DNA of 13,604 nt from Candidatus Brocadiia bacterium (GTDB lineage Bacteria > Planctomycetota > MHYJ01 > JACQXL01): the NCBI GenBank assembly GCA_020062035.1, contig JAGUXD010000110.1:1-13604 (forward strand), given 5' to 3'. The position numbers were made by a program, and so were the translations under genes. The notes under the pieces are model-generated. The model did no database searches. It was not told the DNA's origin and worked only from the letters and a program-made list of their open reading frames with translations. The first letter of the stretch is position 1; the number at the start of each line of letters is the position of its first letter. Shown here in pieces: positions 5,101-13,392 of this stretch.

Positions 5101-6579
5101 TTAACTATGTCTCGCCACCATTATTTCCATCTTCTTTTTCAGGACAGGCAGGGTTACTTTAGCGGTAATGCCTTTCTGGTCTTTATTATTCTGCAGGGTT
5201 ATTCTACCGCTGTGATTCTGGATAATGTTGTAGGCAACTGATAATCCAAGCCCTGTGCCTTTGCCAGGCTCCTTGGTAGTATAAAACCTATCAAAGGCAT
5301 GGGATAATTGCTCCTCAGACATTCCCGGTCCCGTATCACGAATACAAATCGTTATTTCTTTATCTGTTGTTTCAGAAAAGACCTCTATTTTTTTTTCCTG
5401 TTTAGGAGAAGCGGAAAGAGATAGCGAATCAGATGCGTTCATCAGGATATTTAAGAAGACCTGTTGCAGTTCGGTCTGGTCGCCGTATATCTGCGGTAAT
5501 GTGAGAGGGATAGAATTGGAGATAGCGATTTTATTGGCATCAAGACGATGTTTTACAAGAGAAATTGCGCGTTCAATAACAATCTTCAGGTCAAGCGGTT
5601 GCGGGCTAACCCGATGCGAGAATGATTGCAGGATTTTCTTGAGGGTATCCTGAATCCGTATCAGACCGTCAATTATCATGTCAAGATATTGCTGTGTTTG
5701 GGTCTTGTCTAAAGAGCCCTTTTTTAGTGCATCAGCCGCATTAAGGATACCGCCAAGTGGGTTATTTATCTCGTGAGCGATGCCTGCGGCAAGAGTTCCT
5801 GTTGCAGAAAGCCGCTGTGCCACGATTAACTGTGCCTCGGTTGCATCTATCTTCTCGCGGGCTTGTCTGATTTTGCCCTCCATATCCTTTTGGTATTCGT
5901 TTAACTCTTTTGCCATTATATTAAAGGTTTCTATAAGATTGGCGATTTCATCTTTGGTCCCGCTTGGTAGAATGCTTACATTATAATTACCATGTCCGAT
6001 TTCATAACTCGCCCGAGATAGCATCTCTATCGGTTTTAAGACAAATTTAGTTAGTAAAATATACATACTTAAAATCAATATCAATGTGCCTAATGGCATA
6101 ACCAGAAAAATTGTCTTTACGGATTCAATCGGGTCAAAATCCAAGCCCGGCAATGCCTGAATTTCCATTTTTAGAACAAAGAGTTTATTATCAGGGGTAA
6201 TTAATGGTGCGATTACCTTGCCGTCGTGGAAGATGGGCTGGCGGGTCTTTAATACATCAACAATAGATTTGTCGTTCTTAAAGATAGTCGCATCAGGAAT
6301 TGGGGACGCCGAAATAATGGGCGTGAACGTATTGTCAACAATTACCCATTTACCAAATAGTGTGGAATAATTTAACTTTGTTTTAAGCGCTTCCCAGTCA
6401 GCGCTGGTTTTGACCTCAGTAAGCCAATCCTGGGCGACACTTTTTATGAGTTCTGCCATCGCTCTCTGGTTGGTCTGAACCCGTCCCCAGGCCGTTATCC
6501 AGAGATGAAAAGTCAATATGCCGAGGATAAGGATAAGTAAAGAAGCAAGTGCCAATAATATTTTATATCGTAATGACAT
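5101..6579 (-). CDS. Membrane sensor histidine kinase with HAMP domain
   Basis: This is a two-component sensor kinase of 492 residues in the inner membrane. In order: first transmembrane helix (about 6-28), an extracytoplasmic sensor region of about 125 residues with no domain I recognise, second helix (about 155-177), HAMP (about 178-230), a coiled-coil linker rich in charged residues and Gln (228-256), the dimerisation/phosphoacceptor domain with His269 in GIAHEINNPLGGI, and the ATPase domain. The ATPase shows the N box around Asn381 (LNILMNASDSL), the G1 box DTGPGM (415-420), the F box around FDRFYTTK (429-436) and the G2 box GKGTGLGLS (439-447). This H-box style is that of NtrB/AtoS/ZraS-like kinases, which usually phosphorylate sigma-54-activating regulators. 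No response regulator is present, so it is an orphan here. It starts 30 bases after the pilC-like gene. Confidence 0.95.
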   Translation of the reverse strand: MSLRYKILLALASLLILILGILTFHLWITAWGRVQTNQRAMAELIKSVAQDWLTEVKTSADWEALKTKLNYSTLFGKWVIVDNTFTPIISASPIPDATIFKNDKSIVDVLKTRQPIFHDGKVIAPLITPDNKLFVLKMEIQALPGLDFDPIESVKTIFLVMPLGTLILILSMYILLTKFVLKPIEMLSRASYEIGHGNYNVSILPSGTKDEIANLIETFNIMAKELNEYQKDMEGKIRQAREKIDATEAQLIVAQRLSATGTLAAGIAHEINNPLGGILNAADALKKGSLDKTQTQQYLDMIIDGLIRIQDTLKKILQSFSHRVSPQPLDLKIVIERAISLVKHRLDANKIAISNSIPLTLPQIYGDQTELQQVFLNILMNASDSLSLSASPKQEKKIEVFSETTDKEITICIRDTGPGMSEEQLSHAFDRFYTTKEPGKGTGLGLSVAYNIIQNHSGRITLQNNKDQKGITAKVTLPVLKKKMEIMVARHS

Positions 6580-9346: not shown

Positions 9347-10510
9347 ATGCAGGACTATACAACTATCGTTAAAAATGCGACTTCAAGTATTGAAGAAGTA
9401 ATCATCGGTGAGGAGATGCTGATTAATATGGGTCCCCAGCATCCTTCCACGCACGGCGTTTTGAATAAAGTCCTCAAGACCGATGGCGAAATCATAGATG
9501 AGGTATTTCCACAAATCGGTTATCTACACCGCGGATTAGAAAAGATTGCCGAGCGGTTAAACTACCATCAGTTCATTCCTTATACTGACAGGATTGACTA
9601 TATCTCGGCGATGAATTGTAACTTTGCCTATGCGCTGGCAATAGAAAAACTCGCTGGAATAGAAGTTCCCAAAAGGGCTGACTACATCAGGGTGATTATG
9701 GCGGAATTAAACCGTATTAGCAGTCATCTTATATTTATGGGCACAATGGGATTGGAGACCGGTGCTTTTACGCCTCTCCTTTATGGCTTTCGTGAAAGGG
9801 AGGAGATACTTGATTTATTTGAGATGACCTGCGGTCAGCGGCTTACATATAATTATATCCGTATCGGAGGTGTCTCGGCTGATTTGCCTTCGGGCTTTAT
9901 TGATAAAGCCCGTTCTTTCTGTAATTTACTGGAGAAGCGAATCAAGGAATATCACAATCTCCTTTCATACAATAGAATCTTTATAAACCGAATGGCTAAT
10001 ATCGGTGTACTACCTCAGGATTTAGCCATTGCTTATGGTGTAAGCGGTCCTAATTTAAGGGGCTCAGGCGTCAAATGGGACCTCCGTAAAAACGAGCCCT
10101 ATTCTGTCTATCCAGAATTAGAGTTTGATGTCCCTGTGGGCAGGGGCGAAGTTGGCACACCTGGCGACTCATGGGATAGATACATCGTCAGAATGAAGGA
10201 AATGGAACAGAGTATCCGTCTTATTCGCCAGGCACTTGATAAGATTCCTGATGGAGAGGTTCGCTCCAAAGTGCCGCGGCTCTTCAAACCACCACCAGGC
10301 GAGGTCTATGTCCGTGCAGAAAACCCGCGTGGAGAATTGGGTTTTTATGTAGTAAGCGATGGCTCAACTAATCCGTATCGCCTGAAAATCAGGGCACCTT
10401 CTTTTAGTAACCTCTCCGCAGTTCCGCCTATCAGTAAAGGTGCTATGATTGCTGACTTCGTTCTTTTACTGGGCAGTTTTGATATTGTTCTGCCTGAAAT
10501 AGATAGATAA
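9347..10510 (+). CDS. nuoD: NADH-quinone oxidoreductase subunit D
   Basis: NuoD (49 kDa subunit) forms the quinone-binding pocket with NuoB. At 387 residues it has normal length. Family motifs are MGPQHPSTHGVL (28-39), GYLHRGLEKIAE (58-69), DRIDYISAMN (81-90) and the C-terminal LLGSFDIVLPEIDR. His32, His36 and Tyr85 align, with a constant shift of two, with the quinone-site residues His34, His38 and Tyr87 of Thermus Nqo4. The gene is complete to its normal C-terminal DR. A repeat-rich element begins within a few bases of the stop codon, so it did not disrupt the gene. Confidence 0.97.
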   Translation: MQDYTTIVKNATSSIEEVIIGEEMLINMGPQHPSTHGVLNKVLKTDGEIIDEVFPQIGYLHRGLEKIAERLNYHQFIPYTDRIDYISAMNCNFAYALAIEKLAGIEVPKRADYIRVIMAELNRISSHLIFMGTMGLETGAFTPLLYGFREREEILDLFEMTCGQRLTYNYIRIGGVSADLPSGFIDKARSFCNLLEKRIKEYHNLLSYNRIFINRMANIGVLPQDLAIAYGVSGPNLRGSGVKWDLRKNEPYSVYPELEFDVPVGRGEVGTPGDSWDRYIVRMKEMEQSIRLIRQALDKIPDGEVRSKVPRLFKPPPGEVYVRAENPRGELGFYVVSDGSTNPYRLKIRAPSFSNLSAVPPISKGAMIADFVLLLGSFDIVLPEIDR

Positions 10511-10543
10511 TGATAAGTGGATATCCGTCATATCAAACTGGTT

Positions 10544-10560
10544 TTGGCACGGTATTTGCT
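10544..10560 (+). promoter_or_regulatory. Predicted sigma-54 (-24/-12) promoter pointing at nuoH
   Basis: TTGGCACGGTATTTGCT fits the sigma-54 consensus (TGGCACG, four bases, TTGC plus A/T) at every defined position, with the required 10 bases between the invariant GG and GC. Transcription would start near 10570 and run toward nuoH, so it could drive nuoHIJK under an activator. No activator binding site is established. The match is visible; activity is inferred. Confidence 0.6.
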
Positions 10561-10625
10561 TATGGGGAAACATCCCTGCGGAGGAAGGGACGGGAAAACA
10601 GCCTGGACTCAAAACCCAACCAATT

Positions 10626-10672
10626 TTCCCTTTCCCGCCCCCTCACAATAAAATGGGGGGCGGGAAAGGGAA
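10626..10672. repeat. Perfect 17-bp GC-rich hairpin at the centre of the element
   Basis: TTCCCTTTCCCGCCCCC (10626-10642) pairs exactly with 10656-10672 around a 13-base loop. It would fold very stably in RNA or as a DNA cruciform. Neither strand has a T-run after the stem, so it is not a standard intrinsic terminator, though it could stall polymerase or shield RNA from decay. The right arm continues a purine-only run with one exception up to about 10684. Confidence 0.85.
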
Positions 10673-10743
10673 GAAAAGAGAAAATGACTGATTATCAGCC
10701 GTTCTTTATTATTCACTCAGTTTTCCCGTCCCCCCATTCCCAT

Positions 10744-10760
10744 TGCAAATACCGTGCCAA
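10744..10760 (-). promoter_or_regulatory. Predicted sigma-54 promoter facing nuoD
   Basis: The minus strand reads TTGGCACGGTATTTGCA, again a full sigma-54 consensus, in the right arm of the 19-bp inverted repeat. It faces the plus-strand copy and would start near 10733, transcribing leftward through the hairpin and into antisense of nuoD. Confidence 0.5.
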
Positions 10761-10793
10761 AACAATAACACCCAATGGGTGAAATCCCAAATA

Positions 10794-10839
10794 ACTATAA
10801 CTATTTACATAACATAGAGTTATAGTCAAAACCTATGTT
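10794..10839 (+). other. Potential RNA pseudoknot upstream of nuoH
   Basis: ACTATAACT (10794-10802) is complementary to AGTTATAGT (10818-10826), and AACATAG (10811-10817) to CTATGTT (10833-10839). The pairs interleave as in an H-type pseudoknot: 9-bp and 7-bp stems, loops of 8, 0 and 6 bases. If not simultaneous, they are mutually exclusive hairpins. A further small hairpin, CACCCAATGGGTG, lies at 10769-10781. The site ends 63 bases before the nuoH start. Function is unknown. Confidence 0.35.
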
Positions 10840-10902
10840 TGATATGACGGATCCCCCATAAGAGAATTAGGGGATTAGAATATTAGGTAAATAGAATACA
10901 AT

Positions 10903-12039
10903 ATGCTCAAAGAATATATTGACGCAATTAAGAGTTTTGTAGATACTACCATACCATTCTTGGTGATAGACGCGCCGGTTGAATTGTGGTATATTGTCTG
11001 GATTTTCATATTCGGCGGGGTCGTCTTAGGCGGTGCGATGTTATTTGCCGGATTAGCCAGTTTTGCAGAGCGTCGTGTGGCTGGGTTTGTTCAATCCCGT
11101 TTAGGTCCAAATCGGGTTGGTCCTGAAGGACTCTTTCAATTTGTTGCTGACGGTATTAAGTTAGTAATGAAAGAGGATTTAATCCCGAGTGCGGCAGATA
11201 AACTACTTTTCCGTGCCGCTCCTTATGTCCTTTTTATCGGCACATTAGGTATATTCGCGGCTCTTCCTTTTAGTAAATCAGTGAGTATCACAAACCTTAA
11301 TTTAGGGTTACTTTATATATTCGCTATTTCCAGTTTTGTGGCAGTGGGAATTATTATGGCCGGATGGGCAAGCGGCAACAAATGGTCGCTTTTAGGTGCG
11401 ATGCGCTCTGCCTCACAACTTATCAGTTACGAAATACCTATCGCAATCTGCTTTCTGACTATCGTGATGATTGCAGGCACAATGAATATGCACCAGATTA
11501 TAGGACAGCAAACAGGCAGTATTTTTAGTTGGTTTATCTTTCGTTATCCGCCGTTTACAGTTATTACATTTATAGTATATTTCATAGCGGCATTAGCCGA
11601 GACCAACAGAACGCCGTTTGATTTACCTGAGGCCGAGTCCGAATTAGTCGGCGGGTATCATACAGAATACAGCGGAATGCGTTTCGCCTTCTTCTTTATG
11701 GGTGAATACGCCAATATGTTCGCGGTCTGTGCGATTGCGACAATTCTATTCTTGGGCGGATGGCTCAGCCCTTTACCTTTCTTTATCCTCAATGCACTAT
11801 TTGGTGACTATCAATTATTAACCATTATTGAGGGCTTTGGCTGGTTTATTGCCAAGATATTATTCTTGGTCTTTGTAATGATGTGGCTTCGTTGGACACT
11901 GCCGAGATATCGGGTTGACCAACTTATGGCTGTTTGCTGGAAGGTCCTTTTGCCGATTTCATTAGCCACTATGCTCATAATCGGTATCTGGAGCGGTATG
12001 GGGGAGTGGACCTCTCGGTACCGGGGATATGGTTTATGA
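10903..12039 (+). CDS. nuoH: NADH-quinone oxidoreductase subunit H
   Basis: NuoH (ND1) is the membrane subunit that forms the quinone entry channel with NuoB and NuoD and couples reduction to ion pumping. It is 378 residues with about eight hydrophobic helices. Family signatures are visible: RRVAGFVQSRLGPNRVGP (57-74) with FVADGIKLVMKED (80-92), and ALAETNRTPFDLPEAESELV (230-249) followed by GGYHTEYSGMRFAFFFMGEY. The ATG at 10903 has only a weak upstream ribosome site. nuoH follows nuoD directly, without nuoEFG, and is separated from it by the inserted element. It overlaps nuoI by ATGA. Confidence 0.97.
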   Translation: MLKEYIDAIKSFVDTTIPFLVIDAPVELWYIVWIFIFGGVVLGGAMLFAGLASFAERRVAGFVQSRLGPNRVGPEGLFQFVADGIKLVMKEDLIPSAADKLLFRAAPYVLFIGTLGIFAALPFSKSVSITNLNLGLLYIFAISSFVAVGIIMAGWASGNKWSLLGAMRSASQLISYEIPIAICFLTIVMIAGTMNMHQIIGQQTGSIFSWFIFRYPPFTVITFIVYFIAALAETNRTPFDLPEAESELVGGYHTEYSGMRFAFFFMGEYANMFAVCAIATILFLGGWLSPLPFFILNALFGDYQLLTIIEGFGWFIAKILFLVFVMMWLRWTLPRYRVDQLMAVCWKVLLPISLATMLIIGIWSGMGEWTSRYRGYGL

Positions 12040-13320: not shown

Positions 13321-13392
13321 GGTTCTTCATGGAAAAGTGTGGGTTATTTCAGTGTTCTGGCATTATTTACCCACACTAATCCGTGATGACCC
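13321..13392. repeat. 72-bp imperfect palindrome after nuoK
   Basis: The 24 bases at 13321-13344 match the reverse complement of 13369-13392 at 19 of 24 positions, with a perfect inner 9-bp stem (AGTGTGGGT). It begins four bases after the nuoK stop. The GGTTCTTC terminus with a GTGTGGG core reminds me of insertion-sequence ends of the ISL3 type, which is recollection and not a search result. No T-run follows, so it is not a clear terminator. It may be a tiny repeat element or an operon-internal RNA hairpin. Confidence 0.6.

Follow-up and report, generated by a model that had tools for sequence, protein, structure and literature searches.

The feature that lies between nuoD and nuoH is, with a probability of about 0.83, a MITE-like non-coding palindromic repeat, referred to here as unit A, which is nested in a second element, B (10523-10852). 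The best explanation of the two convergent sigma-54 "promoters" in this feature is that each of them is one end of unit A. The window analyzed is the whole stretch of 13,604 nucleotides and corresponds to contig 111 of genome G000, a 1.19-Mb assembly in 211 contigs that is 64% complete. The features are listed in Table 1.

Table 1. Location of unit A, its enclosing and neighboring repeats, and the flanking genes in the window.
Feature	Position	Strand	Remarks
nuoD	9347-10510	+	
Element B (outer), left terminal repeat	10523-10538	+	ATCCGTCATATCAAAC; 16 nucleotides
Unit A, MITE-like palindrome	10541-10763	.	223 bp
Unit A, left arm	10541-10559	+	Holds the inward-facing -24/-12 motif TTGGCACGGTATTTGC at 10544-10559
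Inner stem, left side	10587-10599	.	13 nucleotides; pairs with 10720-10732
Central GC-rich hairpin	10626-10672	.	Arms 10626-10642 and 10656-10672
Inner stem, right side	10720-10732	.	13 nucleotides
Unit A, right arm	10745-10763	-	TTGGCACGGTATTTGC motif on the minus strand, 10745-10760
Element B (outer), right terminal repeat	10837-10852	-	16 nucleotides
nuoH	10903-12039	+	Downstream of unit A in sense orientation
Extra repeat directly after nuoK	13321-13392	.	Same type as the outer element around unit A on other contigs

The arms of unit A were returned by an inverted-repeat search as 19 nucleotides each, 100% complementary, with 185 nucleotides between them. Both arms fully match TGGCACG-N4-TTGC, with the GG at -24, the GC at -12, and the N4 spacing. 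The original prediction of a perfect 19-bp inverted repeat with a full inward-facing -24/-12 consensus in each arm is therefore confirmed. The strong hairpin that it placed at the center is present as well, with 17-nucleotide arms that are 100% complementary; this hairpin is still recognizable in all five intact copies of unit A. The whole nest folds far more strongly than shuffled sequence, with z values of -12.7 for DNA (10515-10870) and -12.5 for RNA (10541-10763). Two further nested inverted repeats, the terminal repeats of B around unit A and the inner stem inside it, were absent from the earlier description, as was the presence of several copies of the unit.

For a window of this size, arithmetic predicts approximately 2e-5 perfect 19-bp pairs that are separated and lie within 400 nucleotides. 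The shuffle control gave one pair in the real window versus one in total over 50 base-shuffled windows, a loose count that also includes overlapping, loop-less palindromes. The perfect 19-bp inverted repeat is not due to chance. Only one ORF of at least 90 amino acids spans unit A, and it is without an NCBIfam match. Unit A is short and non-coding and has terminal inverted repeats, as MITEs do.

A DNA search of the same genome identified a second copy of unit A on contig 92, which is 96% identical over window positions 10542-10762. The boundaries of this copy fall at the arms, and by eye its flanks differ from those in the window. Partial DNA matches were present on contigs 129, 72, and 150. 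The 16-mer of the arm, allowing up to two mismatches, occurs at 16 sites in G000 (control pattern, 1). The original prediction had proposed a genome search for paired inverted copies, and these were found, with both arms present at five loci (contigs 111, 92, 129, 72, and 198). Unit A is truncated by contig ends in three cases (contigs 132, 150, and 87), and one arm remains in two (contigs 136 and 169). The match on contig 156 is a lone site and the sole one of the 16 outside such elements. A decayed arm with three mismatches was seen in part of contig 98. The contig ends at or near copies of unit A are probably the usual effect of repeats on short-read assemblies.

The loci that contain unit A are unrelated. 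One follows a phenylalanyl-tRNA synthetase gene, another has an IMP-dehydrogenase gene on one side and a convergent ORF on the other, and another is flanked by genes for a pseudouridine synthase and an rRNA adenine dimethylase. On contig 72 the element sits between two ORFs that run toward it, one of them without a Pfam match, so neither arm would drive a neighbor in sense there. Unit A is thus multi-copy, is found at unrelated sites, and has sharp boundaries, again as MITEs do. No target duplication was seen by eye at the borders of the five intact copies. No transposase was found among the ORFs beside the copies, which were read by eye with ten proteins scanned, in the 64%-complete assembly. 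Because of these two results, the term MITE as applied to unit A rests on its anatomy.

Unit A is nested in at least three different outer contexts. Element B encloses it in contigs 111 and 72. The ends of B are present at 17 sites in G000 at up to two mismatches (control, 1), many of them without unit A, and visual inspection suggests that at least two of the 17, on contigs 59 and 137, are unrelated. The second context, defined by GTGTGGGT-type ends, was found on contigs 129, 150, 87, 136, 169, and 198, plus the decayed copy in contig 98; here the arms of unit A adjoin ends like GGTTCTTCACGGAAAAGTGTGGGT. The third is an outer flank common to contigs 92 and 132.

Thirteen loci were scanned for paired GTGTGGGT-type ends, and five gave a recognizable pair, none with a full A unit. 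Exact 8-bp target duplications are present at two GTGTGGGT-type elements (L149 in genome G003 and L160 in genome G002), both of which are free of unit A. A third element (L153 in G003) matches at 7 of 8 bp, and a fourth (L164 in G002) has no target duplication, with 3 or 5 of 8 depending on the pairing. The repeat directly after nuoK in the window has no target duplication either (2 of 8); of unit A it retains no more than the opening bases of a single arm (TTCTGGCA). Its interpretation as an empty site of unit A was set aside because these bases remain, and a deletion derivative is preferred.

The outer elements that carry unit A outside the window end in GGTTCTTC..GTGTGGGT-like sequence, which may be of the ISL3 type. 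They resemble ISL3-type MITEs in these ends and in the exact 8-bp target duplications of the two A-free relatives; they differ in that the outer element at nuoD-nuoH is B, which is another element. Four genomes were searched for an ISL3 transposase, with none found in G000, G001, and G003 and only a fragment in G002 (59 of 240 positions). An ISL3 transposase as the driver was set aside, as this fragment was the sole match. A search for an autonomous element by the outer-end-plus-arm pattern among 23 genomes of the class returned only the copies of G000.

At nuo the repeat is an addition: the nuoD-nuoH junction of three genomes of the same family is without unit A. The gap between the two genes is 392 nucleotides here versus 6 in G001, 42 in G002, and 88 in G003. 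In G006 and G005, of the same order, the NuoD and NuoH matches are 6-7 nucleotides apart. In G008, 674 nucleotides extend from the NuoD stop to the start of the NuoH match, with a separate ORF inside. Taken with the 392-nucleotide gap here, the ORF of G008 indicates that the nuoD-nuoH junction tolerates insertions and has taken more than one. By eye, this ORF (locus L122; G008 belongs to another genus) resembles an ORF6N-type protein.

Outside this genus, unit A rests on one interrupted copy in G002, since the arm-pair search matched only G000. Intact arm pairs were found in 1 of 392 genomes of the phylum (drawn from a larger group), which is G000 itself, and a loose arm-pair pattern likewise matched G000 alone among the 392. 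The exact arm-pair pattern gave 0 matches in named genome contigs and 0 in viral contigs. The end-plus-arm arrangement in G002 is 90% identical to contig 129 over 71 nucleotides and lies beside a different gene. After approximately 15 nucleotides, the arm at L101 (G002:C276) gives way to a sequence with further copies on four other G002 contigs, three of which have it at or close to their start. A covariance model of the five copies was run against 12 genomes. Its matches in G000 were these five copies, contig 169, and a marginal one on contig 23 (E 0.09). In four relatives it gave weak, unconvincing matches (E 0.003-0.1); in five genomes, 150 of the first-look candidates were scored.

The exact sigma-54 pattern, TGGCACGNNNNTTGC, occurs 11 times in G000, and the reversed control occurs 0 times. 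Ten of the 11 matches are arms of A elements. The remaining match, on contig 156, follows a gene whose product has response-regulator, sigma-54-activator, and Fis domains, and it precedes a response-regulator gene. Its 16-mer differs from that of the arm at a single base, with CTGG in place of TTGG; the contig 72 arms have the same change.

Exact sites were also compared with activator domains in G005, G003, and G001, which were chosen after the pattern search had shown many sites in them. Sites that follow a same-strand activator domain at a distance of 0.57-1.4 kb make up at least 15 of 35 in G005, at least 3 of 9 in G003, and at least 7 of 13 in G001, with 0.32, 0.04, and 0.09 expected, respectively. 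Combined, at least 25 of 57 exact sites lie just past activator domains versus approximately 0.5 expected. By eye, the TATTTGC of the arm is present in 21 of the 25 activator-linked sites and its GGTATTTGC in 4 of the 25. At the sequence level the sigma-54 link of the arms is real: the arm is identical to the core of the predicted sigma-54 sites beside the activator genes of relatives, and it matches the promoter type that these relatives appear to use there. The layout in the three relatives recurs as activator, promoter, and target, with exact sites approximately 600 bp past the activator domains, and several of these sites have large secreted-looking ORFs downstream (by eye). A perfect sigma-54 motif is also present in G006 (L108, G006:C59) at position 1717, 71 nucleotides before an ORF that by eye resembles DnaK.

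The original prediction expected both dinucleotides of the motif to be conserved among copies, which holds for GG and only in part for GC. At up to two mismatches, GG is kept in 16 of 16 arm sites and GC in 12 of 16 (GC was also counted with a pattern that presupposes GG). Element arms account for 15 of these sites, and GC is present in 11 of the 15. Four arms have GT at -12 (contigs 87, 136, and 198, the last in both arms), and in contig 98 the decayed arm retains neither dinucleotide. These losses count against use of the arms as promoters, as do the position of the contig 72 copy between convergent ORFs and a search for rpoN in the incomplete G000 assembly that did not find the gene.

The original prediction read the arms as convergent sigma-54 promoters by which the expression of nuo would be split and an antisense RNA of nuoD would be made, in effect a device built for nuo. 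The full -24/-12 consensus in both arms and the sense orientation of nuoH downstream are in favor of such a device, as are the activator domains of G000 and the rpoN genes of its relatives. Sigma-54 promoters need an activator, and G000 has at least five sigma-54 activator domains. The rpoN gene, also expected, was not found in the 64%-complete G000, which is one of three genomes without it among 40 searched (37 positive), though it is present in all three other genomes of the same family. The kinase at 5101-6579, described originally as NtrB-like, contains HAMP, HisKA, and HATPase domains. The best 25 of its 80 NCBIfam matches are all below the cut-off and include NtrB; the top match is AtoS at 158.8 bits (cut-off 646). 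AtoS and NtrB are both partners of sigma-54 activators, so the kinase is weak support at most. A device built for nuo is nevertheless very improbable. The same unit is a dispersed repeat that occupies unrelated loci, including the space between the convergent ORFs of contig 72, and it is missing from nuoD-nuoH in the three same-family genomes. The GT at -12 in arms of contigs 87, 136, and 198 also speaks against it. From the start of the rightward match to that of nuoH there are 358 nucleotides. Among 17 ORFs past the sites of relatives, 11 start within 160 nucleotides and the others at 261-349 (19 loci, two without an ORF), a weak comparison with a 400-nucleotide limit and uncurated start codons.

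A different objection concerns the promoter part only and overlaps with the mobile-repeat reading rather than competing with it: the likeness to sigma-54 promoters could be coincidental, the arm being only the recognition sequence of some transposase. Terminal repeats conserve their arms anyway, and the absence of GC from 4 of 15 element arms and the loss of both dinucleotides in contig 98 would be consistent with this. Coincidence is the main rival for this part but rather unlikely, as 11 fixed consensus bases in a given 17-bp block have a probability of approximately 1e-6 by arithmetic (for a motif chosen after the fact). The spacer also matches the sites of relatives, with TATTTGC in 21 of 25, and the one non-element site of the genome, past its own activator gene, has the same 16-mer bar one base. 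Least credible of all is a reading of unit A as a riboregulator or other structured non-coding RNA and no mobile repeat, even with its strong fold and the covariation across copies. The copies diverge, yet their arms stay complementary: across the five intact ones, 99% of the cells of the arm helix pair, and 89.5% do so over the whole structure. Changes on both sides were found in 14 pairs, versus a shuffled mean of 6.4 and 3-6 in slid controls, with partial copies left out and with a structure derived from those same five copies, which favors itself. Palindrome renewal during movement accounts for the covariation as well as RNA structure does, since doubled changes in the arms are expected from it too. 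The palindrome scores on both strands, with each of the five copies detected on both by the covariance model. Unit A has no Rfam match at gathering thresholds, and its copies sit in other repeats.

As a mobile repeat, unit A is very probably a non-autonomous palindrome moved in trans. Its spread would have depended on a transposase encoded elsewhere. The sigma-54 box may once have been the promoter of a transposase, or a captured host promoter, located just inside the end of a mobile element. The arm box starts 13-24 nucleotides inside the outer GTGTGGGT block (six matches), which fits a transposase promoter, but no such transposase was found in the four genomes searched for the ISL3 family or, by the outer-end-plus-arm pattern, in the 23 genomes of the class. 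An inverted duplication would then have doubled the box, so that both arms point inward. The favored origin is descent from an element end that had a sigma-54 promoter facing inward and was then doubled in this way. The boxes are perhaps weakly or conditionally active, in which case transcription would run on through the hairpin and out of the element at either end.

The resemblance of the arm to the activator-linked sites of relatives, 21 of 25 of which have TATTTGC, means that a mobile repeat may be spreading inward-facing predicted sigma-54 promoters. It is unlikely, though conceivable, that the arms of this repeat family are working promoters of this kind that bring activator-dependent pairs to new places. 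If so, insertions would put neighbors, such as nuoHIJK together with an antisense RNA, under the control of enhancer-binding proteins, with a long hairpin in every transcript. The ends of the repeat would be the sigma-54 promoter core of the host lineage, and tightly switched promoters could spread by this route. The growth of sigma-54 regulons by transposition would become testable. If the motif is silent, it is a warning that perfect sigma-54 matches in such genomes can be repeat ends, as in 10 of 11 exact matches here.

Prokaryotic MITEs can carry sigma-70-like promoters and can insert into one another, as stated in part of a 2024 review (PMC10969869). Unit A is similar to the Correia repeat enclosed elements of Neisseria and other promoter-bearing MITEs in the same part of that review, which are short non-coding repeats with promoters able to drive neighbors. 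It differs in that the promoters named there are sigma-70-like, while the motif of unit A is sigma-54 and predicted only. In the portion of another report considered here, PEP-CTERM genes have sigma-54 motifs (motif 2) tied to an NtrC-type response regulator (PMC1569441). The likeness is a -24/-12 site linked to a regulator, as the sites of relatives are to activator domains. Each promoter described there stands singly ahead of a host gene, and its activator motif is on average approximately 63 nucleotides upstream, whereas the arms of unit A are paired and inward-facing. Among open-licence papers, nothing on point for sigma-54 promoters in MITEs was identified by title or the start of the abstract.

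The central hairpin is not among the intrinsic terminators predicted in 10400-10950. Two terminator-like sites were found in this region, against a shuffled mean of 0.6, and each is a minus-strand site. The same region contains five sigma-70-like promoter matches versus a shuffled mean of 1.8; two of the five are plus-strand matches located either in the stretch from the element to nuoH or where nuoH starts. Many contigs of G000 have a mosaic of nested short palindromic repeats with B-family ends (ATCCGTCATATCAAA), often near gene ends, and several of the B-family copies contain CCCCGAAAGTATTCGGGG.
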